Part shown: piece by piece, positions 18,525 to 36,062 of the stretch
Layout of the letters: each line of letters opens with the position of its first letter
How positions within the stretch are numbered: position 1 is the first letter of the stretch
Source: Variovorax terrae
GTDB taxonomy: Bacteria > Pseudomonadota > Gammaproteobacteria > Burkholderiales > Burkholderiaceae_C
Assembly: GCF_022809125.1 (NCBI RefSeq)
Contig: NZ_JALGBI010000001.1
Location: 1,240,001 to 1,304,000, forward strand
Length of the DNA stretch: 64,000 bases
Direction of reading: 5' to 3'
Translations under genes and position numbers: made by a program
Notes under the pieces: model-generated
Databases searched by the model: none
Told to the model about the DNA's origin: nothing
The model's input: the letters and a program-made list of their open reading frames with translations, nothing else

Positions 18525-18560
18525 GGGCGAAAGGGTGGGCAGGGCTCAGGTGGAAAACCA

Positions 18561-18601
18561 GCGGGCCGGCCCCGGATCGCCGAAGCGAAAGGCCGGCCCG
18601 C
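18561..18601 (-). promoter_or_regulatory. Perfect 11-bp hairpin between receptor and livH
   Basis: GCGGGCCGGCC and GGCCGGCCCGC pair perfectly around a 19-base loop in the gap after the substrate-binding-protein stop. There is no U-run. Such intercistronic stems often stabilise the receptor mRNA or reduce downstream expression, giving excess binding protein over permease; that role is inference. Confidence 0.55.
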
Positions 18602-18622
18602 CGGGGGCGGGAGCGCGGAGGC

Positions 18623-19756
18623 TTATTCGACCTTCCAGTCGCCGTTGACGACCTTCAGCATCACGCCGGTCTCGTTGGTGAAGCCCCAGTGGTCCTGCGC
18701 CGTCCAGTCGAGCACGCCGTGCGCCACGACAGTGCGGCCCATGCCCTCGAACGCATCGCGCAGTGCGGCGCGGAACTCCTTGGTGCCGGGCTTGGCCTTC
18801 TTCAGCGCCACCGGGACGGCTTTTTCCAGCACGATCATCGCGTCATAGCTGTGGCCCGCGAACTGGTTGCGCGAACCCGGGCCGTAGGCCTTCTCGTACT
18901 TCTGCACGAAGTCGATCGCCAGCTTCTTGGACGGGTGGCTGTCGGGCAGCTGCTCCGCGATCACGGCCGGGCCGGACACCACCAAGGTGCCTTCCACGTC
19001 CTTGCCTCCGATGCGCATCAGGTCGCGCGTGGCAGCGGCATGCGTCTGATAGATCTTGCCCTTGTAGCCGCGTTCGACGATGGCCTTCTCCGGCATGGCG
19101 GCGCCGCTGCCCGAGGCCACGACCAGGATCGCGTCGGGGTTGCCCGCGGTCAGCTTCAGGGCCTGCGCCGTGACGCTGGTGTCGGCGCGCGCGAAGCGCT
19201 CCACGCCGGTGACCTTGATGCCGTTCTTCTCGGCCTCGGCCGTGAAGTCCTTGAGCCAGAGTTCGCCGTAGGCGTCGGTGTAGCCGAGGAAGCCGACGGT
19301 CTTGATGCCCTGCTTCTTCATGTGGCCGACCATGGCATAGGCCATGACGCCGTTGGACTGCGGCAGGCGGAAGGTCCACTTGTCCTTGCCGGGCGGCAGG
19401 CCGGCGGGCGAGGCGGCCAGCTGGACCGTGCCGGATTCCGCTGCGATGTCGGCCATCGGGATCGCCACCGGCGTGGCGGCGGAGCCGATGATCACGTCCA
19501 CCTTGTCCTCGGTGATCAGGCGCTGCGTGTTCTTCACGCCGGTGGTGGGGTCGGTCGCGTCGTCGAGCACGACGACCTTGAGCTTCTCGCCGGCGATGCT
19601 TTGGGGCCACAGCGCGATGGCGTTCTTCATGGGGATGCCCAGGCCCGAGGCGGGGCCGGTGAGCGGCAGCACCACGCCGATGGTGAGGTCGGCCATGGCG
19701 GCGCCTGCGGCGAGGGTGGCAATCGCGGCGGTGATCAAGGTCTTGGCAATTTTCAT
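18623..19756 (-). CDS. ABC transporter periplasmic substrate-binding protein
   Basis: A 377-residue type I periplasmic receptor (LivK/Peripla_BP_6). The first 22 residues are a signal peptide ending AAGAAMA, followed by DLTIGVVLPLTGPASGLGIP. The mature protein has the two-lobe pattern with VDVIIGSAATPVAIPMADIAAES and VGFLGYTDAYGELW. It lies in the same run as feruloyl-CoA synthetase, SDR and hydratase, so aromatic acids such as ferulate or coumarate are the likely ligands (inference from operon context and from CouP-type receptors). Confidence 0.9.
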   Translation of the reverse strand: MKIAKTLITAAIATLAAGAAMADLTIGVVLPLTGPASGLGIPMKNAIALWPQSIAGEKLKVVVLDDATDPTTGVKNTQRLITEDKVDVIIGSAATPVAIPMADIAAESGTVQLAASPAGLPPGKDKWTFRLPQSNGVMAYAMVGHMKKQGIKTVGFLGYTDAYGELWLKDFTAEAEKNGIKVTGVERFARADTSVTAQALKLTAGNPDAILVVASGSGAAMPEKAIVERGYKGKIYQTHAAATRDLMRIGGKDVEGTLVVSGPAVIAEQLPDSHPSKKLAIDFVQKYEKAYGPGSRNQFAGHSYDAMIVLEKAVPVALKKAKPGTKEFRAALRDAFEGMGRTVVAHGVLDWTAQDHWGFTNETGVMLKVVNGDWKVE

Positions 19757-19816
19757 GGTGATGTCTCCTGGTGGATTGAGGGCGGAAAAAAGGGGGCGCG
19801 TGCCGTGTGGCGCGCT

Positions 19817-20581
19817 TCAGCGCGGCGCCATGCGCAGCGCGCCGTCGAGCCGGATCACCTCGCCGTTGAGGTGCGTGTTGGCCACGATGTGCGCGGCGAG
19901 CTGGGCGAACTCCTCGGGCTTGCCCAGCCGCGGCGGGAACGGGATGGACGCGGCCAGCGAGGCCTGCACCGGCTCGGGCAGCTGCTTCATGAGCGGCGTG
20001 GCGAACAGGCCCGGTGCGATGGTGCAGGCGCGGATGCCGTGCTGCGCGAGGTCGCGCGCCATCGGCAGCGTCATGCCCACGAGGCCGCCCTTGGAGGCGC
20101 TGTAGGCCTGCTGGCCGACCTGGCCGTCGAAGGCCGCCACCGAGGCCGTGAACAGGATCACGCCGCGTTCGCCGTCTTCCAGCGGAGCCAGTTTCGCGCA
20201 CTCGGCGGCGAACAGCCGTGTCATGTTGTAGGTGCCGATCAGGTTGACGTTGACGACCCGGGCGAAGTCTTCCAGCGGCGCGGCGCTGCCGTCCTTGCCG
20301 ACCACGCGCTTGGCGGTGCCGATGCCGGCGACGTTCATGAGGATGCGGGCCGGGCCGTGCGCGGCGGCAGCCTGGGCCAGAGCCGCCGTCACGCTGTCGG
20401 CGCTGGTGATGTCGCATTGGCAGGCCACGCCGCCGATGTCGACCGCGACCTTCTCGGCGAGCGCCAGGTTCACGTCGAGCACGGCGACTTTCGCGCCCAG
20501 GCGGGCGAGCTCGCGCGCGGTGGCCTCGCCGAGGCCGGAGGCGCCGCCGGTGACGAGGGCGGCTTGTCCCTGGATGTTCAT
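19817..20581 (-). CDS. SDR-family 3-hydroxyacyl-CoA dehydrogenase
   Basis: A 254-residue short-chain dehydrogenase of the type II 3-hydroxyacyl-CoA dehydrogenase kind. The cofactor motif is TGGASGLG (11-18), the catalytic triad S147, Y160 and K164 (YSASK), and the C-terminus has NGEVIRLDGALRM. Its start overlaps the stop of feruloyl-CoA synthetase (ATGA), so translation is coupled. In this operon it would oxidise the beta-hydroxy-phenylpropionyl-CoA formed by the hydratase to the beta-keto thioester, the step that distinguishes the beta-oxidative route from vanillin formation. Confidence 0.87.
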   Translation of the reverse strand: MNIQGQAALVTGGASGLGEATARELARLGAKVAVLDVNLALAEKVAVDIGGVACQCDITSADSVTAALAQAAAAHGPARILMNVAGIGTAKRVVGKDGSAAPLEDFARVVNVNLIGTYNMTRLFAAECAKLAPLEDGERGVILFTASVAAFDGQVGQQAYSASKGGLVGMTLPMARDLAQHGIRACTIAPGLFATPLMKQLPEPVQASLAASIPFPPRLGKPEEFAQLAAHIVANTHLNGEVIRLDGALRMAPR

Positions 20582-22464
20582 GGCTTGTTTCCTTGCGGGG
20601 TGTCTTGCGGGATGAGGGTGAAAGGCAGCGTGCCGCCGTGCAGCGCGTTGACCAGGGCCTCGCGGTGCTTGAGCACGGCGCGCTGGTTGATCGAGCCCTT
20701 GTCGGTGACCTCGCCCTTGTCGATGGAAGGGGGCTCGGCCATCAGGTGAGCGCGCGCGATGCGGTTGGCGCTGCCGGTGGCGGCCGCGGCGAGCTGGTTG
20801 ACGACCTTCTGGAAATGCGCCTGCACCGGTGCGCTTTCCAGCACCTGCGGCAGCGTGGCATCGGCGCCCAGGCCGCTGAGCGCGCGGCAGGCCGCCGTCG
20901 GGAACAGCAGCGCGCCGACTTCCTTGAGGTTGATGCCGGTCAGCACGGCGTCCTGGATGTAGGGGGCGCCGGCCGCAATGATCTTCGCGCGCATCGGCCC
21001 CACGCTGACGAAGGTGCCGGTGGCGAGCTTGAAGTCCTCGGCGATGCGGCCGTCGAACTTCAGGCCCTGGTGGATGTCCTGCTCGTCGATCCACCGGACC
21101 GCGTCGCCGGTGGCGAAGAAGCCTTCCTCGTCGAAGGCTTCCTTCGTGGCTTCGGGCGAGCGCCAGTAGCCCGGCGTGATGTTGGGGCCGCGGTAGCGCA
21201 CCTCGGTCTTGCCGTCCACCGGCACCAGCTTGAGCTCGATGCCGGGCGACGGCACGCCGATGTCGCCGGCCTTCACGTTGGGGCTGGTCACGAAGATCGC
21301 GAACGGGGCCGATTCGGTCATGCCCAGGCCCGTGCCCATTACGATGCGCTCGCCGACCTCGGCTTCCTGGGTCTGGTGCAGGCTGTCCCAGATCGGCTGC
21401 GCCAGCGCGGCGCCCGAGTAGAAGAACATCTTCACGCGCGACAGCAGCGTCTGGCGCAGCTGCGCATCGCTCTTCATTGCGTGGGCGATGGCCTCGAAGC
21501 CGGTCGGCACGTTGAAATACACCGTGGGCGCGATCTCGCGCAGGTTGCGCAGCGTCTCGCCCATCAGCGCGGGCGTGGGCTTGCCGTCGTCGATGTAGAG
21601 CGTGCCGCCGTTGTAGATCGTGAGGCCGACGTTGTGGTTGCCGCCGAAGGTGTGGTTCCACGGCAGCCAGTCCACCAGCACCGGCGGCTCCTCGGTCAGC
21701 ACCGGCATGGACTGGCGCATCTGCTGCTGGTTGGCGCACCACATGCCATGCGTGTTGATCACGGCCTTGGGCAACTTGGTCGAGCCCGAGGTGAACAGGA
21801 ACTTGGTGATGGTGTCGGGGCCGGTGGCCTGCATCGCCGCGTCCACGGCCGAGGTGGCGGGCGTGGCCAGCAGGCTGGCGAAGGCGGTGGCGGAGCGGCC
21901 TTCGAGGGTGCCCGAATGGACGGCCACCTCGACGTCGGCGCCGACCGTGGCGGCGATCGCCCGGCCGTAGCGCGCCGCATCGCTCGCGAACACCAGGCCG
22001 GGGGTCAGCGTGTTCAGCACATGGCGCAGCTTGTCGTAGTCCTGGCTGACCGTGGAGTAGGCCGGCGACACCGGGCAGTAGGGCACGCCGGCATAGAGGC
22101 AGCCCAGCGCCAGCAGCGCGTGCTCGAGGCTGTTCTCACTGAGGATGGCCACCGGCCGTTCGGCGTTCAAGCCGCGGTCCAGCAGGGCCTGGCCGATGCT
22201 GCGCGCGCTGGCCAGCGCCTCGCCGTAGGAGATGTGGCGCCAGTCGCCGGTGCTGCCGTCGGCCTGGCGTTCGCGGCGGGCAATGAAGGTGCGCCCGGGG
22301 ACGGCCTGGGCCCAGTACAGCAGCCGGTCGGTCATGCGCAGGGCGTAATCCGACAGGGCCTGGTCGGCCTGCAGGTAGCGCGCGCCGTTGGCGCCTTCGC
22401 GCAGCAGGACGCGGGTGACGCCGAAGGTCAGCGGGCGGTATCGGGGTTGGGTCGTCTCGCTCAT
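20578..22464 (-). CDS. fcs: Feruloyl-CoA synthetase
   Basis: A 628-residue acyl-adenylate-forming enzyme activating ferulate, coumarate or caffeate to CoA thioesters with ATP. The P-loop FTSGSTKLPK (224-233) has the Leu-Pro variant characteristic of feruloyl-CoA synthetases. Further motifs are VDWLPWNHTFGGNHNVG, the adenine-site segment GTGLGMTESAP and the hinge region YWRSPEATKEAFDEEGFFATGD. Length matches the family (about 620). Gene order hydratase-fcs-SDR with a 4-bp overlap to the SDR fits one catabolic unit. Confidence 0.92.
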   Translation of the reverse strand: MSETTQPRYRPLTFGVTRVLLREGANGARYLQADQALSDYALRMTDRLLYWAQAVPGRTFIARRERQADGSTGDWRHISYGEALASARSIGQALLDRGLNAERPVAILSENSLEHALLALGCLYAGVPYCPVSPAYSTVSQDYDKLRHVLNTLTPGLVFASDAARYGRAIAATVGADVEVAVHSGTLEGRSATAFASLLATPATSAVDAAMQATGPDTITKFLFTSGSTKLPKAVINTHGMWCANQQQMRQSMPVLTEEPPVLVDWLPWNHTFGGNHNVGLTIYNGGTLYIDDGKPTPALMGETLRNLREIAPTVYFNVPTGFEAIAHAMKSDAQLRQTLLSRVKMFFYSGAALAQPIWDSLHQTQEAEVGERIVMGTGLGMTESAPFAIFVTSPNVKAGDIGVPSPGIELKLVPVDGKTEVRYRGPNITPGYWRSPEATKEAFDEEGFFATGDAVRWIDEQDIHQGLKFDGRIAEDFKLATGTFVSVGPMRAKIIAAGAPYIQDAVLTGINLKEVGALLFPTAACRALSGLGADATLPQVLESAPVQAHFQKVVNQLAAAATGSANRIARAHLMAEPPSIDKGEVTDKGSINQRAVLKHREALVNALHGGTLPFTLIPQDTPQGNKP

Positions 22465-22497
22465 GGTTCTTCTGGGTGAATCTCGGTGGGCGGCGGA

Positions 22498-23271
22498 TCA
22501 GCCTTTGGCAACCTTGCCGGCGCGGCCTTCGAGGAAGGCGCGCACGCGCTCCTTGGCCTCCGGGGCGCTCTGCGCGATGGCCGCCATCATCGCTTCGGTG
22601 AGGAAGCCCTGGTCGGCCGGCTGCTCGGCGATGCGCGGCAGCGCGTGCATCAGCGCGTAGTTGGTCAGCGGCGCGTTCTGCGCCACGCGCTCGGCCAGTT
22701 CCAGCGCCTTGTCGAAAGCCTGGCCGGGCGGCACGAGGTACTGCGCGAAACCGGCGCGCTCGCCGTCCTGCGCGTTGTAGACGCGGCCGGTGAGCATCAT
22801 GTCGGTCATGCGGGCCACGCCGATCAGCTTGGGGATGCGGACCGAGCCGCCGCCGCCCACGAAGATGCCGCGCGAGCCCTCGGGCAGCGCATAGAAGGTG
22901 GTTTCGTCGGCCACGCGGATGTGGCAGGTGCTGGCCAGCTCGAGCCCGCCGCCGACCACGGCGCCGTGCAGCGCGGCGATCACCGGCACCGGGCCGTACT
23001 GCACGCGCTCCAGCGCGCTGTGCCACATGCGCGAATGGTGCAGGCCCTGGCCGGCATCGCGCTCCTGGAGTTCGCCCAGGTCGAGGCCGGCGCAGAAATG
23101 CTCGCCCTCGCCGGCGAGCACGGCGGCGCGGGTGGTGTCGGGCAGGTTCTCGAACAGCTTGCGCAGGGCCAGGATCAGGCCGTCGTTCAGCGCATTGCGC
23201 TTGGCGGGGCGGCTCAGGCGGATCACGGCAATGGCGCCGCGCATGTCAAGTTGGATGTCTTTGCTGGTCAT
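22498..23271 (-). CDS. Crotonase-family enoyl-CoA hydratase (feruloyl-CoA hydratase)
   Basis: A 257-residue crotonase. Oxyanion-hole segments HFCAGLDLGE (58-67) and GAVVGGGLELA (103-113) are present, and both glutamates used by true hydratases are kept at E111 and E131 (YALPEG). It is the first gene of the minus-strand operon, facing the divergent amidohydrolase. Beside an SDR dehydrogenase and with no vanillin dehydrogenase nearby, hydration without aldol cleavage is the likelier activity, but a hydratase-lyase cannot be excluded from sequence. Confidence 0.85.
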   Translation of the reverse strand: MTSKDIQLDMRGAIAVIRLSRPAKRNALNDGLILALRKLFENLPDTTRAAVLAGEGEHFCAGLDLGELQERDAGQGLHHSRMWHSALERVQYGPVPVIAALHGAVVGGGLELASTCHIRVADETTFYALPEGSRGIFVGGGGSVRIPKLIGVARMTDMMLTGRVYNAQDGERAGFAQYLVPPGQAFDKALELAERVAQNAPLTNYALMHALPRIAEQPADQGFLTEAMMAAIAQSAPEAKERVRAFLEGRAGKVAKG

Positions 23272-23300
23272 GGTTGCTTTTCAGGGTCGAATGAATTATC

Positions 23301-23315
23301 GTTATGAAATATAAC
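23301..23315. promoter_or_regulatory. Candidate operator between hydratase and amidohydrolase genes
   Basis: GTTAT-GAAAT-ATAAC is a perfect 5-bp inverted repeat in the AT-rich centre of the 116-bp divergent intergenic region. It is well placed to be the site of the cluster's MarR regulator and to control both directions. Binding is untested. Confidence 0.45.
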
Positions 23316-23387
23316 CAACTCAATGCCGCCGTAGCCGCATTTCATCAGTGTTTACCCTAAGCTTTGGGCCGCTCCCAGGAGACTGAC

Positions 23388-24257
23388 ATGGACCACAAGA
23401 ACCTCGTTGCCATCGACATACACACCCACGCCGAGGTGAGCTGCTGGAACCCGTTCGACAACTACGGTGAGGAATACGACCGCGCAGCCGACAAGTACTT
23501 CCGCAACAGCCGGCGCCCCACGATCCAGGAGACGATCGACTACTACCGCGAGAAGAAGATCGGCCTGATCATGTTCACGGTGGACAGCGAGTCCCAGCTC
23601 GGCCGCCGCCGCATCCCCAACGAGGAGATCGCCGAGGCCGCGCAGAAGAACAGCGACATGATGATGGCCTTCGCCAGCATCGACCCGCACAAGGGCAAGA
23701 TGGGCGCGCGCGAGGCCGAGCGCCTGATCAAGGAGCACGGCGTCAAGGGCTTCAAGTTCCACCCCACGGTGCAGGGCTACCACCCCTACGACAGGATGGC
23801 CTGGCCGATCTACGAGGTGATCAACGCGCACAAGCTGCCGGCCATCTTCCACACCGGCCACAGCGGCATCGGCTCGGGCATGCGCTGCGGCGGCGGCCTG
23901 CGCCTGGAGTACAGCAACCCGATGCACCTGGACGACGTGGCGATCGACTTCCCCGACATGCAGATCGTCATGGCGCACCCGAGCTTCCCGTGGCAGGACG
24001 AGGCGCTGAGCGTGGCCACGCACAAGCCCAATGTGTGGATCGACCTGTCGGGCTGGAGCCCCAAGTACTTTCCGAAGCAGCTCGTGCAGTACGCCAACAC
24101 GCTGCTGAAGGACCGCATCCTGTTCGGCAGCGACTACCCGCTGATCACGCCCGACCGCTGGATGAAGGATTTCGAGGAGGCCGGCTTCAAGCCCGAGGTG
24201 ATGCCCGGCATCCTCAAGGGCAATGCGGTGCGGCTGCTGGGGCTGGAGGCGGCCTGA
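23388..24257 (+). CDS. Amidohydrolase-family protein, probable beta-ketoacyl-CoA hydrolase/decarboxylase
   Basis: A 289-residue metal-dependent TIM-barrel amidohydrolase (COG2159 type). Ligand motifs are HTH at 12-14, KFHPTVQGY, FHTGHSG and FGSDYP near the C-terminus. The ATG at 23388 has an AGGAG site 7 bp upstream. It is transcribed divergently from the fcs operon. In the CoA-dependent beta-oxidative hydroxycinnamate pathway described in Agrobacterium an amidohydrolase of this family cleaves the beta-keto-phenylpropionyl-CoA, giving the benzoate (vanillate or 4-hydroxybenzoate). Context supports that role; ACMSD-like or resorcylate decarboxylase activity is the alternative. Confidence 0.8.
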   Translation: MDHKNLVAIDIHTHAEVSCWNPFDNYGEEYDRAADKYFRNSRRPTIQETIDYYREKKIGLIMFTVDSESQLGRRRIPNEEIAEAAQKNSDMMMAFASIDPHKGKMGAREAERLIKEHGVKGFKFHPTVQGYHPYDRMAWPIYEVINAHKLPAIFHTGHSGIGSGMRCGGGLRLEYSNPMHLDDVAIDFPDMQIVMAHPSFPWQDEALSVATHKPNVWIDLSGWSPKYFPKQLVQYANTLLKDRILFGSDYPLITPDRWMKDFEEAGFKPEVMPGILKGNAVRLLGLEAA

Positions 24258-24336: not shown

Positions 24337-25329
24337 TCACTCGGCCTTGATGCCCGCGGCCTTGATCACCTGGGCCCATTTCTCGACCTCGGCCTTCTGG
24401 AAGGCTGCGATCTGCGTGGTGCTGAGGTCGGCCGGCTCCATGCCGAAGCCCTTCATCCTGGCCTGCATCTCGGGCTGCGCCAGGATCTTGCGAATTTCGC
24501 CGTGCAGGCGGTCGATGACGGGCGCGGGCGTGCCGGCCGGCACGAAGATGGCCTGCCACGACACCACCTCGAAGTCCTGCAGCCCGGCCACGCCCGACTC
24601 GGCCACCGTGGGCACGTCGGGCAGCGAACTCAGCCGCTGCGCCGAGGTGACCGCGATGGCGCGCAGCTTGCCGCTCTGGATGTGCGGCGCCGCCACCACC
24701 GTGGTGTCGAACATCATGTCGACCTGGCCGCCGATCACGTCCTGGATCGCCGGGCCGCTGCCCTTGTAGGGCACGTGCGTGAACTTCACCCCCGACTTGT
24801 AGGCCAGCAGCTCCAGCGCCAGGTGCTGCGAGGTGCCGGTGCCGGCCGAGGCCGACGACAGGCCGCCGTTGCGCGTCTTGCTCGCGGCCAGCACGTCTTT
24901 CAGGCTCTTGTACGGGCTGTTGGCGTTGACTACCAGCACCACCGGATTGGTGCCGATCAAGGTGACGGGCGCGAACGACTTGATCGGGTCGTAGCCGATC
25001 TTCGGGTACAGGCTCACGTTGATGGCGTGCGAGCTGATGGTGCCGCCCAGCAGCGTGTAGCCGTCCGGCGCGGCGCGCGCGGCGATCTCCGAGCCCACGC
25101 TGCCGCCGGCGCCGCCCTTGTTGTCGATCACCACGCTGGTGCCCAGCGTGGTGCCGAGCTGCTGGCTGATGAGCCGGCCCAGCGTGTCGGTGGTGCCGCC
25201 GGCCGGGAACGGCACGAGGTAGGTGATGGCCTTGGCCGTCGGCCAGCCGCCCTGGGCCCGGGCGGGCAGGGCGGCAAGCGGGGTGGCCAGGGCGGCCATG
25301 GCGGTGTGGATCAGGGCGCGGCGTTGCAT
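24337..25329 (-). CDS. Bug/TctC-family periplasmic receptor
   Basis: A 330-residue tripartite-tricarboxylate-type binding protein. The signal peptide (about 1-26) ends ALPARA. Family hallmarks are ITYLVPFPAGGTTDTLGR, VVIDNKGGAGG, PDGYTLL, THVPYKGSGPAIQD and LPDVPTVAESG. It is the last gene of the minus-strand uronate run and begins 94 bp after the second GH67-like gene. No TctA/TctB membrane genes are in the window, so either it shares permeases elsewhere or acts in sensing. Ligand unknown; a sugar acid or glycoside is a guess from context. Confidence 0.88.
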   Translation of the reverse strand: MQRRALIHTAMAALATPLAALPARAQGGWPTAKAITYLVPFPAGGTTDTLGRLISQQLGTTLGTSVVIDNKGGAGGSVGSEIAARAAPDGYTLLGGTISSHAINVSLYPKIGYDPIKSFAPVTLIGTNPVVLVVNANSPYKSLKDVLAASKTRNGGLSSASAGTGTSQHLALELLAYKSGVKFTHVPYKGSGPAIQDVIGGQVDMMFDTTVVAAPHIQSGKLRAIAVTSAQRLSSLPDVPTVAESGVAGLQDFEVVSWQAIFVPAGTPAPVIDRLHGEIRKILAQPEMQARMKGFGMEPADLSTTQIAAFQKAEVEKWAQVIKAAGIKAE

Positions 25330-25423: not shown

Positions 25424-27067
25424 TCATGCTGGGCTCCCGAGCACCGCAAGGGCCTGCGCCTCGATCCGGCGGCCGTCGCGGATGATGTCGTGCGCGCGGC
25501 GCGGGTCCATCAGCATGATGTACTGGTGCGGCACGCTGCCGGTCCGGGCCAGCGCCTGCACCGTGTCGGCATGGCGTTCAAGGGCTTCGAGCAGGCGGGA
25601 CAGCGCCTTGTGGTCGTCCTCGCGGTGCCCGGCCTGCGGATCGCCAAGCCAGCGCGCATACAGGCAGACCTTGGCGCACAGCTCGAGCCCCTCGACCCAG
25701 GTGTCGAAATGCGCGAAGCCCGCCTGGACGAAGGCCTGGACCCGGGTGTCCACGGCTGGCGCCGCGCGGCGCACGTCGGCCACCAGGGCGCGCGCCAGCG
25801 CGAGCGCCTCGTCCTTCTCGGCCAGCGCGCGCTCGAGGCGGCGGCGGTCGAGCTGGAGGTCGCCGGCCCGCTCGGGGGCCCAGACGGCCAGGCTGTCGCG
25901 GTTCTCCATGCCCCACCAGGCCCGCTCGATGCTGCGCGGCAGCATGCTGTTGTCGGCGGACACGAAGCCGTCGATGTAGGCGGCGCGCCGCACCACAGGC
26001 TCGGTCCGTTCGAGCAGGGCGGCCAGCCAGCCGGCGGCGCCTTCATCCCAGCCACGCTCGGCCAGCCAGCGCCGGCAGGCCTGTGCGGCGTCGATGTCCT
26101 GGCCGCGCGCCAGCGCCGCCGCGCCGATGAGGTTGATCTCGTTGAGCGTGTCGAGTGCGTCGAGGTCGTTGATGCGCTCCCACTCGATGCGGAAGATGCC
26201 GCCTTCGACGCCATGGGCCTGCCAGTGCGCCATGCGCCGGCGCAGGTCGTCGAGCACCAGGCAGGGCATGCAGCCCCAGCCGAAGAACTGGCCCATCACG
26301 TCGTACTCGACCCATTGCGTGCGCCGCACCTGGCGGATCGCCGGGTTGTCGGGGAAGCCCAGGTAGAAGTCGTGCGGCGTCGCCTTGATGCAGAAGATCA
26401 CGTCCTCGGGCGCGGCGTCCACCGCCTCGATCAGCGGCGCATGGTCGGCCGGCTTATAGGCGAAGTCGCGCACCGCGAGCCGCTTGCCGTGCCGCGCGAT
26501 CGGTGCGTGCAGGCAGGCGATCATGCGGGCATACCAATCGACCAGCGGCTCCTCCTGGCAGCGCGCGCAGCGGCAGGTCTTCTGCACACGCGAGGCGCGG
26601 CTTTCCTGCGAGCCGAAGCTCACGATCAGGCCCGCGAGGGCCGGGAAGTCGCCGAACAGCTCGTCCATCTTGTGGCCGAGGTACTCCGTCCAGAAGGGCT
26701 CGGAGGGACAGATCGCGCCATTCTTGAACACCTCGGGGTGCAGGGCGAACACCTCGTCGGAAAAGCCGATCTCCTTGACGTTGACCCACACCGCCACGCC
26801 GGCAGCGCCGGCCATGGCGAGCAGGTGCTCAAAGTAGGCGCGGCGGTTGAAGATCGCGTTCTCGCCGCGGCGCGACGGCAGGTCGCTCCACAGCGCATAG
26901 GGATCGAAGTAGGCGCGCGGGTAGACGAGCTGGTGCACCAGGTCCGACTCGTGCAGCACCAGCGTGTTCATGCCGTGGCGCTGCATGAAGGCGAGCACGC
27001 GCTGCACGCGCTCGCGCTCCCACATGCGCTGGCCATGCATCTCGACGGCGCGCATCGCCAGCGTCAT
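25424..27067 (-). CDS. GH67-like TIM-barrel protein, paralogue A (possible new glycosidase family)
   Basis: A 547-residue cytoplasmic-looking protein (no signal peptide) that I cannot assign to a named family. It is homologous along its length to the next gene. The N-terminal half alternates strands and helices as in a TIM barrel (MNTLVLHESD, VAVWVNVKEIGFSD, LAGLIVSFGSQES). The segment CIKATPHDFYLGFPD followed by TQWVEYDVMGQFFG resembles the alpha-glucuronidase GH67 core (VKNGPIDFQ, EFQITQEYLG). By that alignment E155 and D233 match catalytic residues, and Q260 replaces a glutamate. CRCARC (165-170) is a possible metal knuckle. The ATG overlaps the upstream stop (ATGA). Lying in a uronate operon, it may release uronic acids from imported glycosides. 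Confidence 0.55.
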   Translation of the reverse strand: MTLAMRAVEMHGQRMWERERVQRVLAFMQRHGMNTLVLHESDLVHQLVYPRAYFDPYALWSDLPSRRGENAIFNRRAYFEHLLAMAGAAGVAVWVNVKEIGFSDEVFALHPEVFKNGAICPSEPFWTEYLGHKMDELFGDFPALAGLIVSFGSQESRASRVQKTCRCARCQEEPLVDWYARMIACLHAPIARHGKRLAVRDFAYKPADHAPLIEAVDAAPEDVIFCIKATPHDFYLGFPDNPAIRQVRRTQWVEYDVMGQFFGWGCMPCLVLDDLRRRMAHWQAHGVEGGIFRIEWERINDLDALDTLNEINLIGAAALARGQDIDAAQACRRWLAERGWDEGAAGWLAALLERTEPVVRRAAYIDGFVSADNSMLPRSIERAWWGMENRDSLAVWAPERAGDLQLDRRRLERALAEKDEALALARALVADVRRAAPAVDTRVQAFVQAGFAHFDTWVEGLELCAKVCLYARWLGDPQAGHREDDHKALSRLLEALERHADTVQALARTGSVPHQYIMLMDPRRAHDIIRDGRRIEAQALAVLGSPA

Positions 27068-28797
27068 GCCGTCACCTCTTCGGTGGGCGCCGCCAGGCGC
27101 GCAAGCTGGGCTTCGATGTCCAGCGCCAGCGCACGGACGCGCGAGACGTCGAGCAGCCAGTAGGCATAGTGCGGGTAGTGCGTGCCCGCGAGCACGGCAT
27201 CGATCTGCCGGGCGAACTCGCGCAGCGGAGGCACGGCCGCGCCGGCCGCCTCGATCCAGGCCGCTTCGCCCGAGCGCCGGGCGCGGTCGGCAGAGAACAC
27301 CGCCCGCGCGCACAGCATGTAGCCCTGCACATAGTGCTCGTACAGCCCGAGCATGGTCTCGAGCTCCGCGGCCACCGCCGGTGGCAGGCCCAGTTCGCGC
27401 GGCCGCAGCAGGGCGCCGAGCCGGCGCACCTCGGCGAGCGCCTGCTCCTTTTCCGCGAAGATGATCTCGAGGTTCTCGTCGGTCGGCTCCAGCAGCCGCG
27501 AGGCGCCGGGCTCCCAGTCGTCCCGGCCATGGATGTGGACCAGCATGTCGAAGGCCTTGGCCAGCGATTCGGGGTACTGGTCATCCTCGTGGAACAGGTG
27601 GCCGCGCACGTAGGCGGCCTTTTCCATGACCTGCCACGACGCCCGCATGTAGTCGCGCAGCCAGACCGGCGCCTGCGGATGCGCCGGCACCTGCGGCGGC
27701 GCCATCTCCGAGGCCGAGCGCATCGGCGAGTACAGGCCGTGCCGGGCCCAGGCCGCGTAGATGCCGTCCAGGTCGCGCTCCACGTCCTGCGCCAGCATCG
27801 CGCCGCCGATCACGTTGAGGATGTTCGGACTGTTGAAGCTGCCCGCGTCGGTGATCACCTCCCAGTCGGTGCGCAGCGAGATGCCCTCGGCCCCGCTGGC
27901 CAGCGCGTGCCGCATGCGCCGCTGCATGTCCTCGACCACGCTGAGCGGGAAGAAGCCGAGGCCGAAGAACTGGCCCCAGGTGTCGTACTCGATCCACTGC
28001 CGCAGGCCTGCGGTGTGGCCGATGCGCGGGTTGTCGGGGAAGGTGGGGTAGTAGTCGTGCGGCGTGTTCTTCAGCGAGATCACGATGTCGGGCGAGCAGC
28101 GGCGTGCCGCGTCGAGCATGTGGCTCTGCTGGTCGGCCGAGTAGGAGAAGTCGCGCACCGCGAGCGTCTTGCCCGCGGCCGCGAGCGGCCGCTCCATCGC
28201 GCCGAGCAGGTCGGCGTACCAGTCCGCCGGCGACAGCGCGGCGCAGCGTTCGCAGCGGCAGCTGTTGGCCGAGATCGACACCTTGCTCTCGCGCGTGCCC
28301 GGGCTGACGATCACGCCCGCCAGATCGGGCACGGCCTGCACCAGCTCGCACATCTTGATGTCGAGGAACTTCCACCAGAACGGATCGCTCGGGCAGACCG
28401 AGCCGTCGGCGCCGCGCAGGCCCGGCACGATCTCGAGCAGCGCATCGGCGAACCAGATCTCCTTGATCTGCAGGTACAGGCGGATGCCCAGCGCCTTGGC
28501 TTCGCGCGCCACCTTGTTGATGTAGTGGCGGTTCTGGTAGATCGAGTGCAGCCGCACCGGCCAGCGCTTCCACATGAGCTCGTCGGGAAAGAAGGCCTCG
28601 GGGAACACCAGGTGCTCGACGATGTCGTTCTGATGGAACACGAGCGCATTCATGTCGAACTGGTGCATGAAGCTCAGCGCCTGCTCGACCTGTGCCCATT
28701 GCCACATGCGGCTGGAGTGGAATTCGAGCGCGCGAACCGCAAAGCCGCGGGCACCGGCCCTGGCGCCCGCCGAGGGCGTCTTGCTGTCGAACGTCAT
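27064..28797 (-). CDS. GH67-like TIM-barrel protein, paralogue B (possible new glycosidase family)
   Basis: A 577-residue paralogue of the following gene, with no signal peptide. Shared blocks include MNALVFHQNDIVEHLVFPEA, LYLQIKEIWFAD, LAGVIVSPGTRES, CRCERC (180-185), VRDFSYS, SLKNTPHDYYPTFPDNP and QWIEYDTWGQFFG. Against remembered GH67 motifs, E170, D248 and Q276 fall where Glu (acid), Asp and Glu lie; the D248-Q276 spacing of 28 equals that of the GH67 pair. The C-terminal 200 residues are helical, as in GH67. Start 28797 overlaps the Bug receptor stop by 4 bp, so receptor and both paralogues are translationally coupled. Function is inferred, not recognised. Confidence 0.55.
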   Translation of the reverse strand: MTFDSKTPSAGARAGARGFAVRALEFHSSRMWQWAQVEQALSFMHQFDMNALVFHQNDIVEHLVFPEAFFPDELMWKRWPVRLHSIYQNRHYINKVAREAKALGIRLYLQIKEIWFADALLEIVPGLRGADGSVCPSDPFWWKFLDIKMCELVQAVPDLAGVIVSPGTRESKVSISANSCRCERCAALSPADWYADLLGAMERPLAAAGKTLAVRDFSYSADQQSHMLDAARRCSPDIVISLKNTPHDYYPTFPDNPRIGHTAGLRQWIEYDTWGQFFGLGFFPLSVVEDMQRRMRHALASGAEGISLRTDWEVITDAGSFNSPNILNVIGGAMLAQDVERDLDGIYAAWARHGLYSPMRSASEMAPPQVPAHPQAPVWLRDYMRASWQVMEKAAYVRGHLFHEDDQYPESLAKAFDMLVHIHGRDDWEPGASRLLEPTDENLEIIFAEKEQALAEVRRLGALLRPRELGLPPAVAAELETMLGLYEHYVQGYMLCARAVFSADRARRSGEAAWIEAAGAAVPPLREFARQIDAVLAGTHYPHYAYWLLDVSRVRALALDIEAQLARLAAPTEEVTA

Positions 28798-29795
28798 TTG
28801 ACTTGCTGCCTCACCATCTGGAGGATGCCGGTCTGGGTGACGACCTGCTTGTAGTGGGCCTGCTGGTCGGTCCATTTGCGCGCGAACGCGGCCGGCCCCA
28901 TGTAGACGGGCTCCAGCCCGAGCTGGCGGATCGAATCCTGCATCGCCGCCGTATTGAGCGCCTTGTCGAGAGCGTCGGCGAGCTTCTTCCTCACGGGCTC
29001 GGGCAGGTTCTTCGGCGCGCCGATGCCCTGCCAGAGGGTCACGACCACGTCATAGCCCTTCTCGCGCGCGGTAGGTGCGTCCTTGAACAGTGGGTCGGCC
29101 AGGCGCTGCTCGCCGAACACCACGAGCACCCGGATCTTGCCGGCCTTGACCTGTTCCTTGATGTCGACCGGGTTGATGCCGCCGGCCTGGATGTGGCCGC
29201 CCAGCAGCGAGGTGATCAGGCTGCCGCCGCCGTCGAAGTTGACGGGCTCCATCGGGATCTTGGCCAACTGCTGCAGGTGGGCCGGGCCGATGTGCGAGGT
29301 GTTGCCGATGCCGGTGATGCCGTAGTTGGTCTTCTGCGGATTGGCGCGCGCGTAGGCCGCGAATTCCTCGAAGGTCTTCCAGGGCGCGTCGCCCCTGACG
29401 GCCAGCACGAAAGGCACCTCGCCGACCTGGGCGATGGCGTCCAGATCGGTGGCGTAGTTGTGGCGCGCAATGCCGTAGAGCGGCTGCGTCACCATGCCGC
29501 TGTTCGTGATGCCGATGGTGTAGCCGTCGGGCTTGGCCTGCACCAGTTCATTGAGGCCGATCATGGCGGCGGCGCCGGGCTTGTTCTCGACTACCACGGC
29601 CTGGCCGAGCTGCTTTTCCAGATCGCGCGCGACCAGCCGGGCCACCAGGTCCGAGCTGCCGCCCGGACCGAACGGGACGATCATCTTGACCGGCCGGTTC
29701 GGGTAGTCCTGGCTCCAGGCCGCGGGGCCGGTGAGGCCCGCGCAGGCCGCCGCGAGGGCGGTGGCCAGAATTCGTCTTCGTTGGATGGGTGTCAT
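28794..29795 (-). CDS. Bug/TctC-family periplasmic receptor
   Basis: A 333-residue receptor with signal peptide ending GPAAWS (about residue 28), then QDYPNRPVKMIVPFGPGGSS, VVVENKPGAA and KPDGYTIG. Instead of the common VPYKG it has MEPVNFDGGGSLITSLLGGH, so the ligand site may differ from the other Bug proteins here. Its stop overlaps the start of GH67-like paralogue B (ATGA), which ties this receptor to those enzymes. Upstream is galactarate dehydratase (41-bp gap). The ligand may be a uronic-acid-containing compound (inference). Confidence 0.88.
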   Translation of the reverse strand: MTPIQRRRILATALAAACAGLTGPAAWSQDYPNRPVKMIVPFGPGGSSDLVARLVARDLEKQLGQAVVVENKPGAAAMIGLNELVQAKPDGYTIGITNSGMVTQPLYGIARHNYATDLDAIAQVGEVPFVLAVRGDAPWKTFEEFAAYARANPQKTNYGITGIGNTSHIGPAHLQQLAKIPMEPVNFDGGGSLITSLLGGHIQAGGINPVDIKEQVKAGKIRVLVVFGEQRLADPLFKDAPTAREKGYDVVVTLWQGIGAPKNLPEPVRKKLADALDKALNTAAMQDSIRQLGLEPVYMGPAAFARKWTDQQAHYKQVVTQTGILQMVRQQVK

Positions 29796-29836: not shown

Positions 29837-31417
29837 TCAGGTAATCGGTGCCGGATTGAACAGCACCAACGCGTTGTGCAGCTTCCAATGCTCTGCCCAG
29901 GTTTTCTTGCGGCCGCTGGCCACGTCCAGCATCAGACGGAACAGCTCCCAGCCCACGTCTTCGATGCTTGCCGTGCCGTCGGCGATGCGGCCGGCGTTCA
30001 CGTCCATCAGGTCGTGCCAGCGGCGCGCCAGCTCGCTGCGCGTGGCCACCTTGATGACCGGGCAAGCGGCCAGGCCATAGGGCGTGCCGCGGCCGGTGGT
30101 GAAGACATGCAGGTTCATGCCGGCTGCGAGCTGCAGGGTGCCGCAGATGAAATCGCTGGCCGGCGTGGCGGCGTACACCAGGCCATGGTCTATGCGGCGG
30201 TCCGCCAGCCTTTGCCCCGGCGACAGCACGCCCGTGATCGGTGCGGTGCCGCTCTTGACGATGGAGCCCATGGCCTTCTCGACGATGTTCGACAGGCCGC
30301 CCTTCTTGTTGCCGGGCGTGGTGTTGGCGCTGCGGTCCGCCTTGCCCTTGTCGAGATAGGCGTCGTACCAGGCCATCTCCTGGATCATCGCCTGGGCCAC
30401 GCCGGGGCTTGCCGCGCGCGAAGTGAGCTGGTCTATGCCGTCGCGCACCTCGGTCACCTCGCTGAACATCACGGTCGCGCCCGCGCGCACGAGCAAGTCG
30501 GTGCAAAAGCCCACCGCTGGATTCGCCGTGACGCCGCTGAACGCATCGCTGCCGCCGCATTGCACGCCCACGACCAGCGCGCTGGCGGGCACGGTCTCGC
30601 GCCGGCGCGCGTCAAGGCGCCGCAGGTGCGCCTGGGCGCTGTCCATGATGGCGTCGATCATGGACATGAAGCCCACATGCGCCTCGTCCTGCAGGCAGAC
30701 CACGTCCAGCGCGGGCTCTCGCTGATCCACGATGGGAAAGGAGCCGGGCGGCAGCAGGCGCTCGGGCTGCAGCTTCTCGCAGCCCAGGCTCACCACCATC
30801 ACCTCGCCGCCAAAGTTCGGGTTGTGGCTGATGTTGCGCAGCGTGCGCTGCGGTATTTCGGCGCCCGGGGCGTCGATTGCCACGCCGCAGCCATAGGTGT
30901 GTTCCAGCCCGACCACGTCATCGACGTTCGGGTATTTCGGCAGCAGTTCCGACTTGATCCTGCGCACCGCAAAGTCGAGCACGCCGGCCACGCATTGCAC
31001 CGTGGTGGTGATGGCCAGGATGTTGCGCGTGCCGACCGAGCCGTCGGCATTGCGGTAGCCCTCGAAGGTGTAGCCTTCCAGCGGCGGCATCGCGGGCGGC
31101 CGCCGCGTGGCGATGGGCAGGCTGCCGTCCAGCTCGCGCGCCTCGGGCATCTTCAGCAGGCGTTCATGCACCCAGCTGCCGGCCGCGATGTCTTTTGCCG
31201 CATGGCCGATGGCCACGTTGTAGCGCAGCACGGGGGCGCCGGCGGGCAGGTCGGCCAGCGCCACCTTGTGGCCTTGCGGCACCGGCTCGCGCAGGGCGAG
31301 GCCCGAGGGCAGCAGGGTGCCAGCCGGCAGGCCGCCCTCGTTGGCGACGATCGCGACGTTGTCGCCCTCGTGCATGCGGATGAGCAGCGGGGGCTGGTGC
31401 GGCGGCGGGGCATTCAT
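29837..31417 (-). CDS. garD: UxaA-family galactarate dehydratase
   Basis: A 526-residue UxaA-family hydro-lyase with an N-terminal SAF-like domain (about 10-95) and a C-terminal catalytic region containing [53 protein letters not shown] and the C-terminal [16 protein letters not shown]. Family members dehydrate galactarate or altronate. Because uronate dehydrogenase, lactonase, glucarate dehydratase and KdgD are alongside and uronate isomerase is not, galactarate to 5-dehydro-4-deoxyglucarate is the better call. It follows dctM by 10 bp. Confidence 0.85.
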
Positions 31418-31427: not shown

Positions 31428-32714
31428 TCATTTGCCCATGAACAGGCCGGGCAGCCACATGGAGAACGCCGGCACGAAGGTCACCAGCATCAGCGCCGCG
31501 ATCAGCGCGCCGTAGAACGGCCAGATCGTGCGCATCACATAGCCGACCGACACGCCGCCGATGGCGCAGCCGACGAACTGGGTCGTGCCCACGGGCGGCG
31601 TGTTCAGGCCGAGCGCGCAGTTGATCAGCATCACCATGCCGAACTGCACCGAGCTCATGCCGTAGTGCTGGGCGATCGGCAGGAAGATCGGCGTGCACAG
31701 CAGGATGGTGGCCGCCATGTCGAGGAAGGTGCCCAGCACGAACAGGATGACGTTGATGAGCAGGAAGATCATCCACGGCTCGGTGGTGATCCTGGACAGC
31801 ATCTGCCCCGTGAGCTCGGCCACGCCATAGAGGCTGATGAGGTAGCCGAAGGTGCTGGAGATGCCGATCAGCAGCAGCACCACGCCGGTGGTGCGCACCG
31901 CCTTGGCCGCAGCCTTGATGAAATGCTCCCACTTCAGGGTGCGGTAGACGAAGATCGTCAAGGCCAGGGCGTAGAGCACGGCCACGGCGGCCGACTCGGT
32001 GGCGGTGAAGACGCCGCTCAGGATGCCGCCCAGGATCAGCACCACCACGAACAGGCCGGGCAGGGCGGCGGCGAACGAGCGCGCCACGATGCTCCAGCCC
32101 GGGAACGTGCCCGCCGGGTAGCCGCGCCTGACGGCCACCAGGTAGGCGGCGGCCAGGTTGCTCAGGGTCAGGATCAGGGCGGGCAGCAGGCCGGCCAGGA
32201 TCAGCGCCGCGATCGACACCTTGCCGCCGGCCGCCAGCGAATAGATGATGAGGTTGTGGCTGGTGGGCATCAGCGCACCGACCAGGGCCGCGTGCGTGGT
32301 CACGTTGACGGCGTAGTCCGCGTGGTAGCCCTCCTTCTTCATCATCGGGATCATCACGGCGCCCATGGCCGAGACATCGGCCACCGGCGAGCCCGAGACG
32401 CCGCCGAACAGCGTGCAGGCCACCACGTTGGACATGCCCAGGCCGCCGCGCACGTGGCCGACCAGGTTCTTCGCCAGCGCGACGATGCGGTCGGCGATGC
32501 CGCCGTACATCATCAGCTCGCCGGCGAAGATGAAGAACGGAATCGCCAGGAAGGAGAAGATGCCCATGCCGGAGGTCATCTGCTGGAAGCCGACGGCCAG
32601 CGGCAGCCCTTCGTAGAGCAGGGTGGACAGGGCTGACAGCCCGATGGCGAACGCCACCGGCACGCCCAGCAGCAGGAACAGCGTGAAACTGACGCAGAGG
32701 ATGGTGAGAGCCAT
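31428..32714 (-). CDS. dctM: TRAP transporter large permease (DctM)
   Basis: A 428-residue DctM-type membrane subunit with about 12 hydrophobic segments. Family patterns are [54 protein letters not shown] and the C-terminal [16 protein letters not shown]. It couples sodium or proton influx to uptake of the ligand delivered by DctP. It follows dctQ by 3 bp. Together with the uronate genes it is likely the glucuronate/galacturonate importer. Confidence 0.95.
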
Positions 32715-32717: not shown

Positions 32718-33206
32718 TCAATTCCAGGAGGGTTCCACTTCGCGCCCCTGGGCCAGGGCCATCAGGTGTTCGATCGAAAACAGGACGATGAGGACGCCCG
32801 CGACGGCCGCGGGAATGTATTTCCAGCCCTCGGAAATCCACAGCGTGGGCAGGCGGTAGGACCAGACGGACAGGGCGAGGTAGCCGCAGTTCCAGGCCAT
32901 GGCGGCGCCGAACAGCAGCACCAGCGCGTGGATCAGGTATTCCATCCGCAGGCGGATGCGCTCGGGCGCCAGGATCAGCAGCGACTCCAGGCCGATGTGG
33001 CCCGCATCGCGCACGCCGACGGCGGTACCCAGCATGGTGACGTAGAGCACCAGCAGCAGGGCCAGGCTCTCCGCCCAGGTGGGCGTGTTGTTGAGAACGT
33101 AGCGGCCGAACACCTGCCAGGACACGGCGCAGATCAGCGCCACGATGCCGGCGATGCCCAGCCACATGCAGGCCCGGGCGAGCCGGCGGCAGAGGGTGGT
33201 GTACAT
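32718..33206 (-). CDS. dctQ: TRAP transporter small permease (DctQ)
   Basis: A 162-residue protein with four hydrophobic segments and the DctQ pattern VFGRYVLNNTPTWAESLALLLVLYVTMLG, then GVRDAGHIGLESLL. It pairs with DctM in the membrane. The gene lies between dctP (66-bp gap) and dctM (3-bp gap), the standard PQM order. Confidence 0.92.
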   Translation of the reverse strand: MYTTLCRRLARACMWLGIAGIVALICAVSWQVFGRYVLNNTPTWAESLALLLVLYVTMLGTAVGVRDAGHIGLESLLILAPERIRLRMEYLIHALVLLFGAAMAWNCGYLALSVWSYRLPTLWISEGWKYIPAAVAGVLIVLFSIEHLMALAQGREVEPSWN

Positions 33207-33272: not shown

Positions 33273-34247
33273 TTACTTCGTGTCCTGGATGCGCTTGACC
33301 AGGTCCTTGAGCTTGGCGTCCGTGATGAACTTGTCATACACCGGCTTCATCGCGGACTGGAACGAGGCCTTGTCGACCTCGATGATCTGGGCGCCGCCGG
33401 CCTTCACGATGGCCAGCGATTTCTCCTCGCGCTCGTCCCACAGCTTGCGCATGTAGGGCACCGATTCCTTGGCGGCCTGGCGGATCGCCTTCTGGTCGTC
33501 GGGGCCGAGCGTGTCCCACACGCGCTTGGAGAACAGCAGCATCTCGGGCGCCATCGAGTGGTCGGTCACCGAGAAGTACTTGGCCACCTCGAAGTGGCGC
33601 GAGCTTTCGTAGGACGGGTAGTTGTTCTCGGCGCCATCCACCAGGCCGGTCTTGAGCGCGGTGTAGACCTCGCCGAACGGCATGGGCGTGGCGTTGGCGC
33701 CCATGGCTTCGAGCAGCGCGACCCACAGGTCGGACTGCTGCACGCGGATCTTCAGGCCCTTGGCGTCGGCCAGGGTGCGCACCGGTTTCTTGGCGGTGTA
33801 GAGAGAGCGCGAGCCGCTGTCGTAGTAGGCCAGGCCGATGAAGCCCTGGGGCGCGCAGGAGGCCAGGATCTCCTCGCCGATCGGGCCGTCGAGCACATGG
33901 CGCATGTGTTCCTTGGAGCGGAACAGGAAGGGCATGGTCGGCACCTGCGTCGAGGCACAGATGTTGTTCATCGGCGCGATGTTCACGCGCGTCATGGCCA
34001 GCGCGCCGATCTTGGTCTGCTCGATGGTGTCCTTCTCGTTGCCCAGGGCGCTGTTGTTGAACACCTTGATGCTGTGTTTGCCGTTGGTCAGCGCCTTCAG
34101 GCGCTCGCCCATGAACTTGACGGCATCGACCGTGGGATAGCCGTCGGGGTGGATGTCGGAGGAGCGGAATTCGGTGGCGTGGGCGCTGAATGCCAGTGCG
34201 GCAGCCAGGCCCACGAGGCCATGTCGGAGCGTTTGTTGGAGTGTCAT
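33273..34247 (-). CDS. dctP: TRAP transporter substrate-binding protein (DctP), probably uronate-specific
   Basis: A 324-residue receptor with signal peptide ending AFSAHA (residue 24), then [20 protein letters not shown]. It contains the DctP signature [10 protein letters not shown] (the arginine that binds the carboxylate) and [26 protein letters not shown], which resembles TRAP receptors known to bind D-glucuronate and D-galacturonate in Polaromonas. Lying downstream of uronate dehydrogenase and lactonase on the same strand makes a hexuronate ligand likely. Confidence 0.9.
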
Positions 34248-34287: not shown

Positions 34288-35172
34288 TCAGCCGGCGAAC
34301 GCCGGCTCCGGCAGGCCGCGCACGCCGGGGTGCAGCGCGAACACGCCGCCGGCCAGCGGCTGGTCCGACAGGTCGATGCCATCCGGCCGGATCGAGGTGA
34401 CGAACAGCGTGTCCAGGCCAGGGCCGCCGAAGGCGCACATGGCGGGTTTCTTCACCGGCACGGGCAGCGAGCGGTCGAGCTGGCCGGCGGGTGTGAAGCG
34501 GTGCACCAGCCCGGCGTCGTTGCCGCAGATCCAGTAGCCGCCGTCCTCGTCCACCGCGGCGCCGTCGGGCCGGCCGGGCAGCGGGGCCATGTCCACGAAC
34601 AGGCGGCGACGCGAGGGCGTGCCGCTGGCGGTGTCGTAGTCGAATGCCCAGATCTTCTGCACCGAGGGGTGCGAATCCGACAGGTACATGGTGCGGCCGT
34701 CCGGGCTGAAGGCCAGGCCGTTCGGCACGATGAAGCCGTCCAGCCGCGGCGCCAGATCGCTATTGTTTTGATAGCAATAAAGCACCCCGGCATGCCGACC
34801 TGCGGCCATATCGAGCAACATGGTGCCGGCCCAAAAGCGGCCCTGGCGGTCGCAGCGACCGTCGTTGAAGCGCATGCCGGGCTGGGCGTGCCGTACCACC
34901 GCCAGAGGCTGGGCGGCCAGCGCGCCGGCGCTGCCCGGGGCCAGGTGGAACAGGCCCGACTCCATTGCCGCGAGCCAGCCGCCCTGGGCATGCGGCGCGA
35001 TGCAGCCGGTCATCTCCGGCGTGGCCCAGGCGCTGAGCCCGCCGCTGGCGGTGTGCCAGCGGTGCAGCCGGCGCGCCGGGATGTCCACCCAGTAGAGCGC
35101 CTGCTCATCCGGGCGCCAGACCGGGCTCTCGCCGGTGGCGTTGCGTGCGTCGACAACCAGTTCGGCCTGCAT
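34288..35172 (-). CDS. SMP-30/gluconolactonase-family aldarolactonase
   Basis: A 294-residue six-bladed propeller of the SMP-30 family with the metal-site motifs GESPVW (14-19), MRFNDGRCDRQGRFWAGTM (100-118) and VPNGLAFSPDGRTMYLSDS (149-167). It would open the 1,4- or 1,5-aldarolactone produced by uronate dehydrogenase, whose gene ends 23 bp upstream. Residues 132-139 (YCYQNNSD) are encoded by a 17-bp repeat head at 34759-34775, an AT-rich patch unlike the rest. Relative to the family pattern there seems to be no net length change there. Confidence 0.88.
   Translation of the reverse strand: MQAELVVDARNATGESPVWRPDEQALYWVDIPARRLHRWHTASGGLSAWATPEMTGCIAPHAQGGWLAAMESGLFHLAPGSAGALAAQPLAVVRHAQPGMRFNDGRCDRQGRFWAGTMLLDMAAGRHAGVLYCYQNNSDLAPRLDGFIVPNGLAFSPDGRTMYLSDSHPSVQKIWAFDYDTASGTPSRRRLFVDMAPLPGRPDGAAVDEDGGYWICGNDAGLVHRFTPAGQLDRSLPVPVKKPAMCAFGGPGLDTLFVTSIRPDGIDLSDQPLAGGVFALHPGVRGLPEPAFAG
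34759..34775. repeat. 17-bp repeat head inside the lactonase coding sequence
   Basis: GCTAT-TGTTTTG-ATAGC, identical base for base to the head of the copy at 53848-53864. It lies in frame in the lactonase gene, and I see no convincing 24-bp tail on either side. Confidence 0.7.
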
Positions 35173-36008: not shown

Positions 36009-36049
36009 TCTTCGCAATCCATGGTGGAGGGGTTGGAGGTATGTTATCG

Positions 36050-36062
36050 GTTGTCGTACAAC
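36050..36062. promoter_or_regulatory. Candidate GntR operator, udh/gntR intergenic
   Basis: GTTGT-CGT-ACAAC is a perfect inverted repeat in the 77 bp between udh and gntR. FadR-branch GntR regulators typically bind TTGT-N3-ACAA. The block CGTACAACAT recurs upstream of the Bug gene at 37007. Confidence 0.65.

Follow-up and report, generated by a model that had tools for sequence, protein, structure and literature searches.

A tandem pair of predicted TIM-barrel proteins, candidate alpha-uronidases related to GH67 and GH138, in a hexuronate operon of Variovorax terrae

The present report analyzes two adjacent genes, here called A and B, in a window of 64,000 nucleotides from Variovorax terrae (contig NZ_JALGBI010000001.1, positions 1,240,001 to 1,304,000), where they lie in an operon for hexuronate oxidation. 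From gene order, predicted fold, a distant homology to glycoside hydrolase family 67 (GH67), conserved residues and operon content we conclude, with moderate confidence, that A and B work as exo-acting alpha-uronidases in the cytoplasm and belong to an unnamed glycoside hydrolase family akin to GH67 and GH138. They would most likely release D-galacturonic acid (GalA) from uronides taken up by a TctC receptor and a tripartite tricarboxylate transporter (TTT), the released acid being oxidized by the uronate dehydrogenase (Udh) route. The parts of this reading differ in firmness: fold and superfamily are near certain, a uronide is quite probably the substrate and, given a uronide, a galacturonide is clearly favoured over a glucuronide. 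A preliminary description of this DNA had proposed GH67-like enzymes cleaving glucuronides.

The gene calls bear out two paralogues of 577 and 547 residues (34% identity across 563 columns, E 8e-95), and both of the ATGA couplings first described are present, as 4-base overlaps between A and B (27064-27067) and between the TctC (Bug) receptor gene and A (28794-28797). Neither protein has a Pfam or NCBIfam family above curated cut-off, and within these two collections the earlier statement that they belong to no named family holds. Against PDB sequences A gave a single chance match (phmmer, E 0.76), and a profile holding A and B gave nothing below E 0.099. Scores for DUF4923, CcmH and MftD were below cut-off over short stretches and were rejected. 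DUF4838 reached E 0.038 in one of seven members and was found in 0 of 190 in a genome search. A search of the literature, which by text cannot go by sequence, yielded no paper recognised as treating such proteins. Averaged over 15 residues, Kyte-Doolittle hydropathy within the first 60 residues peaks at 0.87 in A and 0.83 in B, and by this crude measure a strongly hydrophobic N-terminus occurred in none of 12 members checked (L008 being outside the 12). Both proteins, for which the absence of a signal peptide had been noted before, are therefore probably cytoplasmic, as also proposed at first.

Structure models of A and B (predicted template modelling scores 0.83 and 0.88) are both TIM barrels, as had been expected, with a helical C-terminal domain; the barrel strands of A are residues 21-27, 51-56, 106-111, 161-164, 211-216, 239-243, 266-272 and 305-311. 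For both models the first PDB match in Foldseek was the GH138 enzyme BP0997, aligned over nearly the whole length (506 of 577 residues in A, 488 of 547 in B), and GH67 alpha-glucuronidases came next, at 11-14% identity. The structure search gave no confident match to an unrelated fold; such a match was what the preliminary description had named as telling against its proposal. BP0997 is an enzyme of rhamnogalacturonan II (RG-II) pectin, with specificity for the linkage between D-galacturonic acid and alpha-1,2-L-rhamnose. The (beta/alpha)8 barrel and helical C-terminal domain are common to GH67 and the two models, whereas GH67 enzymes carry a further domain before the barrel, for which there is no room in A and B because their models begin at the barrel, with the first strand at residue 21 (A) or 5 (B); GH67 1l8n aligns to the models only from residue 139-140. 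With GH138 the barrel and the almost whole-length match are shared, but the GH138 chain 6hze_B has 856 residues against 547-577, and neither family profile (A2, A3) listed a GH138 chain up to E 10 when run against PDB sequences. GH138 is reported mainly in Bacteroidetes (PMC7922503). A family with the GH67 core fold set apart by its active-site residues has a published precedent in the GH115 alpha-glucuronidases (PMC3879575); that no GH115 chain stood among the 50 matches listed per structure search of A and B is uninformative either way.

Kinship to GH67 in sequence was assessed by hhalign against four aligned reference proteins (L029-L032), loci L027 and L028 being left out since a motif search gave no long frame in the stretch. 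The family profile comprised 13 proteins, namely A and B, pairs from L005 and from L006, and single proteins from L007, L008, L010, L011, L012, L013 and L026; the Klebsiella aerogenes copy (L009), split in its record and 88% identical to L010, was excluded. Eight of the 13 form a core and the other five are enterobacterial. The whole profile matched GH67 with a probability of 95.5% (P 1.6e-8, score 75.6), the core alone with 93.7%, the enterobacterial members with 95.0%, and A and L010 as single sequences with 86.8% and 74.2%. Each of ten other proteins of these loci, among them such barrels as KdgD, an amidohydrolase, UxaC and GH2, stayed below 1%; being single sequences against a four-row GH67 profile, as controls they count for less than the reversed profile (0.4%) and 100 column shuffles (maximum score 35.2, maximum probability 10%). 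Rotating the profile by 100 to 500 columns still left scores of 47.6 to 75.5 (62 to 95.5%): the signal is local, probably confined to the block of strands 6 and 7, and the aligned length of 429 columns is therefore uninformative. A 12-row profile (A3) against 177,635 PDB sequences placed three GH67 AguA proteins on top in the same register, at an insignificant E of 1.2. For A, B and five further members no GH67 Pfam model was listed up to E 10, a range in which most matches with E beyond about 0.1 are removed by the filters of HMMER. Membership of GH67 was rejected, the base glutamate being absent and a Pfam match lacking. What stands of the GH67 likeness first noted is thus a distant homology at superfamily level (95.5%), and A and B form a separate, GH67/GH138-related family.

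Residues were counted over the same 13 proteins in the numbering of A. R215, K243 and D272 are identical in all of them. In the alignment of all 13, E170 falls on the GH67 acid, the glutamate of SEGQ after strand 4; D248 meets AguA D364, the aspartate of KNGPID; and E270 (E in 12, D in one) meets AguA E386. The motifs KNTPHDYYP and EYDTWGQFFG of the preliminary description were located in A. The GH67 spacing of 28 residues that it had placed in B is instead found in A (D248 to Q276, equal to GH67 L029), B having 27 (D233 to Q260), and in both the second residue is Gln, where GH67 has Glu. It is possible to read these positions as a catalytic site in which E170 would be the acid, E270 and D272 with D248 the other carboxylates, and R215 and K243 a clamp for the substrate carboxylate. 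In GH67 the arginine of WRAF (GlcA67A Arg-325) and the lysine of KNGPID (Lys-360) bind the substrate carboxylate; if this carries over, uronate recognition would be the most conserved trait of the family and the base would not. The family is placed beside GH67, and not inside it, because the Arg and Lys positions are invariant while the base varies.

Several observations weigh against this reading. Alone, B reached only 1.4% and L026 0.1% against GH67. The alignment of the eight core members puts the GH67 acid on R169, one residue before E170; the E170 position is E in nine of 13 (D in three, Q in one), and that of D248 is D in nine only (R in three, G in one). The GH67 base E392 of QEYLG meets Q276, which is Gln in all eight core members (E in three, T in one and V in one of the other five). 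Such losses could indicate barrels whose GH67 machinery has decayed, inactive or non-hydrolytic and serving in binding, sensing or a lyase-like reaction, since the base is Gln in the core and acid and aspartate vary in the enterobacterial group; a set of cysteines (C135 and C-x-C-x2-C at 180, 182 and 185; in eight of eight core and none of five enterobacterial members), possibly holding a metal, would agree with this. We nevertheless judge it very unlikely: E170, D248, E270 and D272 are kept in all eight core members, and their retention in paralogues diverged to 34% identity argues for selection on catalysis. GH138, the nearest fold, works with a different residue pair, catalysis being by two glutamates and specificity by two arginines.

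Fold raises a further difficulty. By VIA Z, GH20 and GH84 barrels rank close to GH67, and therefore the fold alone gives no uronate specificity; GH20 barrels do match both models, but with a root-mean-square deviation of about 7 for long GH20C alignments. A and B could in that case be glycosidases of the GH20/GH67/GH84 group acting on another sugar, for example a hexosaminide or beta-glycoside, and stand in the operon through shared regulation only. This we hold to be quite unlikely, as the profile-profile signal goes to GH67 with Arg and Lys invariant in 13 of 13 (GH20 being outside that comparison), and as uronate genes of two different catabolic routes accompany the family.

The operon of A and B runs on the (-) strand from 36008 down to 24337 as Udh, lactonase, DctP, DctQ, DctM, galactarate dehydratase, TctC, A, B and a second TctC, with successive gaps of 23, 40, 66, 3, 10, 35, -4, -4 and 94 bases (41 rather than 35 between galactarate dehydratase and TctC if the latter starts at ATG 29795). 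The hexuronate oxidation cluster originally recognised is thus real, with Udh, galactarate dehydratase, KdgD, lactonase and TRAP (tripartite ATP-independent periplasmic) genes present; 4n8y, 4mhf and 4mij, the PDB sequences nearest to DctP, presumably have hexuronates as ligands. In the proposed sequence of events, a dedicated TctC receptor and TTT permease would import small uronides and the TRAP system free uronic acid; A and B would hydrolyse a terminal uronic acid, most likely GalA, in the cytoplasm, the substrates being disaccharides derived from pectin (GalA-Rha or GalA-GalA, for example); and Udh, lactonase, galactarate dehydratase and KdgD would oxidize the released acid towards 2-oxoglutarate. 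A search of the own genome found no GH67 and no GH28; together with N-termini lacking strong hydrophobicity, this suggests an organism that scavenges small uronides. PMC5507952 describes clusters for hexuronate oxidation that contain Udh, TRAP UxuPQM and a GntR regulator and resemble the window operon in pathway, transporter type and regulator type; a TctC gene combined with a tandem barrel pair is not described in the part consulted.

The window TctC next to A has orthologues at the corresponding place in L005 (72%) and L006 (52%), as opposed to 27-31% identity between this group and other window TctC genes (27-29% for the window gene itself against the two others). Such constancy next to A across three lineages points to a dedicated receptor. 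TctA adjoins this A-side TctC in L006; the own genome has four TctA genes, none within the window. TTT systems are predicted for sugar acids in PMC5507952, and a TTT system for uronides would go beyond that prediction.

Neighbourhoods of relatives offer partial support. There are nine distinct ones, with L009 and L015 counted as one and L016 and L017 as one, and the other frames searched numbered 7 of 8 in L005 (the longest partly), 13 of 14 in L006, 5 of 12 in L007, 9 of 14 in L018, 2 of 2 in L008, 5 of 11 in L015, 6 of 14 in L016, 2 of 14 in L017 and 9 of 14 in L026. Uronate or pectin genes occur in four of the nine: the window; L009/L015, with GH88, MFS_2 and GH28; L016/L017, each with GH28 and a sugar-type binding protein; and L026. 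The last has tagaturonate reductase and UxaC above cut-off, Eda, TRAP, a GarD/UxaA-family dehydratase under the GarD cut-off, a KdgK-like kinase just under cut-off and a GH2 protein with a beta-glucuronidase-like score, under cut-off. To be set against this, none of the genes searched in L005, L006, L007 and L018 (four of nine) was of uronate or pectin type, and the GH88 by L010/L015 is beta-galactosidase BglB over the NCBIfam cut-off, the K. aerogenes record calling it RhiN. L008 has only GH43 and a short-chain dehydrogenase/reductase (SDR). Neighbourhoods without uronate genes, which the preliminary description had named as contrary evidence, are therefore found in part, as far as the genes searched show. 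Udh is present in one of the nine and TRAP in two.

The case for galacturonate draws on two catabolic routes, oxidative in the window and isomerase-type in L026, which have in common only a dehydratase superfamily and the transporter type. Galacturonate is favoured because Udh, galactarate dehydratase and KdgD are in the operon, tagaturonate reductase is beside a distant relative and GH28 beside others; Udh accepts glucuronate as well as galacturonate, however, and therefore the operon does not prove galacturonate. The original proposal, alpha-glucuronidases for imported aldobiouronic acids that cut glucuronic or 4-O-methyl-glucuronic acid from xylan fragments and feed Udh, draws on this breadth of Udh, on the homology and fold shared with GH67, on the UxaC of L026, which is named a glucuronate isomerase, and the sub-cut-off beta-glucuronidase-like GH2 there, and on the GH43 of L008, which has a beta-xylosidase-type C-terminal domain and adjoins the relative. 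It nevertheless appears unlikely, since the galactarate dehydratase of the operon handles the product of galacturonate, tagaturonate reductase and the GH28 of two groups of relatives point the same way, no GH67 was found in the own genome and Foldseek ranks an RG-II pectin enzyme first.

If A and B are alpha-uronidases as favoured here, they would add a family of such enzymes, seen here only in few Pseudomonadota (other phyla being covered only by genome-contig and plasmid searches). They would also give imported uronides a way into the oxidative uronate pathway inside the cytoplasm, connect GH67 with GH138-like enzymes at the level of sequence, and provide a named cargo for one group of TctC receptors, many of which, to our knowledge, have no known ligand. 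A bolder version, possible but doubtful, is a new GH family bridging GH67 and GH138, in which replacement of the water-activating Glu of GH67 by Gln would mean a different, possibly retaining, mechanism, and which with its own TctC would be a fixed module coupling TTT uptake of uronic-acid oligosaccharides to intracellular hydrolysis.

The family is real but patchy. Its breadth was judged from sampled genomes, one genome-contig scan and collections of plasmids, phages and viruses, in which samples overlap and only part of the candidate stretches was scored in most genomes (e.g. 3 of 12), so that rarity is an upper impression and not a census. A and B are the only members in their own genome, and the genus contains no other genome. 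Relatives were limited to the own genome among 274 genomes of the class and 330 of the order; 398 of the phylum gave the own and four others; and 197 of the order of G823, probably enterobacterial judging by kinship to the K. aerogenes record, gave five, four of them shared with the phylum sample. Among 399 genomes of the family the own was joined by two weak partial matches in the helical C-terminal part (L003, query residues 360-523, 28%, E 5.0e-4; L004, 390-522, 34%, E 6.5e-4), which were not counted. The genome-contig scan gave three loci with two short N-terminal patterns from A and B, which enterobacterial relatives would escape. Plasmid searches gave two records only, the phage search no relative, and IMG/VR 46 pattern stretches of which none was confirmed as a relative. 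When E. coli genomes were searched for distant DNA matches to the L010 gene, none came up.

Paralogue pairs are adjacent in the window and L005, while in L006 an SDR sits between them and the second copy is equidistant from A and B; two paralogues kept near each other in three loci may serve different aglycones or form a heteromer. In L007 a 27-residue trace of a B-type gene (8770-8850, 63% to B) directly follows the A-type gene, and would be a decayed copy or an assembly error.

Table 1. Features of the window around genes A and B.
Feature	Coordinates	Strand	Remarks
Second TctC/Bug receptor	24337-25329	(-)	94 bases downstream of B; 27% to first TctC, not orthologous
Gene B	25424-27067	(-)	547 aa; paralogue of A, same predicted fold; candidate alpha-uronidase
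Gene A	27064-28797	(-)	577 aa; predicted (beta/alpha)8 barrel and helical C-terminal domain; candidate alpha-uronidase
TctC/Bug solute receptor	28794-29795	(-)	overlaps A by 4 bases; start taken as ATG 29795
Galactarate dehydratase (GarD)	29837-31417	(-)	NCBIfam equivalog TIGR03248, 893.5 bits vs cut-off 730.85
TRAP large permease DctM	31428-32714	(-)	PF06808
TRAP small permease DctQ	32718-33206	(-)	PF04290, E 7.3e-26
TRAP receptor DctP	33273-34247	(-)	nearest PDB sequences 4n8y, 4mhf, 4mij
SMP-30/gluconolactonase-type lactonase	34288-35172	(-)	PF08450
Uronate dehydrogenase Udh	35196-36008	(-)	PDB 3rft uronate dehydrogenase, E 7.3e-86; start taken as 36008
GntR-family regulator	35990-36916	(+)	divergent from operon; NanR/LldR/UxuR-like scores, all below cut-off; start approximate
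KdgD, 5-dehydro-4-deoxyglucarate dehydratase	38053-38964	(+)	equivalog TIGR03249, 427.8 vs cut-off 373.95
Aldehyde dehydrogenase	41320-42774	(+)	closest: alpha-ketoglutaric semialdehyde dehydrogenase, 509.7 bits, under 770 cut-off

Some records of relatives have features of their own. L008 (NC_016079.1, 4050 bp) is a circular "plasmid" of Pelagibacterium halotolerans with three catabolic genes (the family member, GH43 and SDR), one of which spans the record start, and no replication gene was seen in it; the record possibly represents part of some larger replicon that was circularised. L009 (LR134122.1), a 568-kb K. aerogenes record labelled plasmid, carries the chromosomal housekeeping genes guaA, guaB, ppk, ppx and purM and has several genes in pieces, the relative of A among them; it resembles a stretch of chromosome containing frame errors. 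In L006 a regulator (17845-19023) whose PF05651 domain putatively recognises sugar diacids lies two genes and a few kilobases past the pair, beyond a LacI regulator and a competence gene; it is a weak hint, was not counted, and may or may not belong to the relative pair. L005 contains an open frame of 2706 residues (13541-21661) that runs off the locus, of which the slice 16541-19540 matches GH94 supersandwich and glucoamylase-like domains and the slice 13541-16540 no NCBIfam model.

Within the window, a serine beta-lactamase/esterase-like protein (43201-44547), with class C scores far under cut-offs, lies downstream of KdgD and the aldehyde dehydrogenase. On the other side, an AMP-binding enzyme, an enoyl-CoA hydratase and an amidohydrolase_2 protein (20578-24257) adjoin the uronate operon and are perhaps a separate acid catabolic cluster; beyond them are transporters that by eye resemble the branched-chain amino-acid type.

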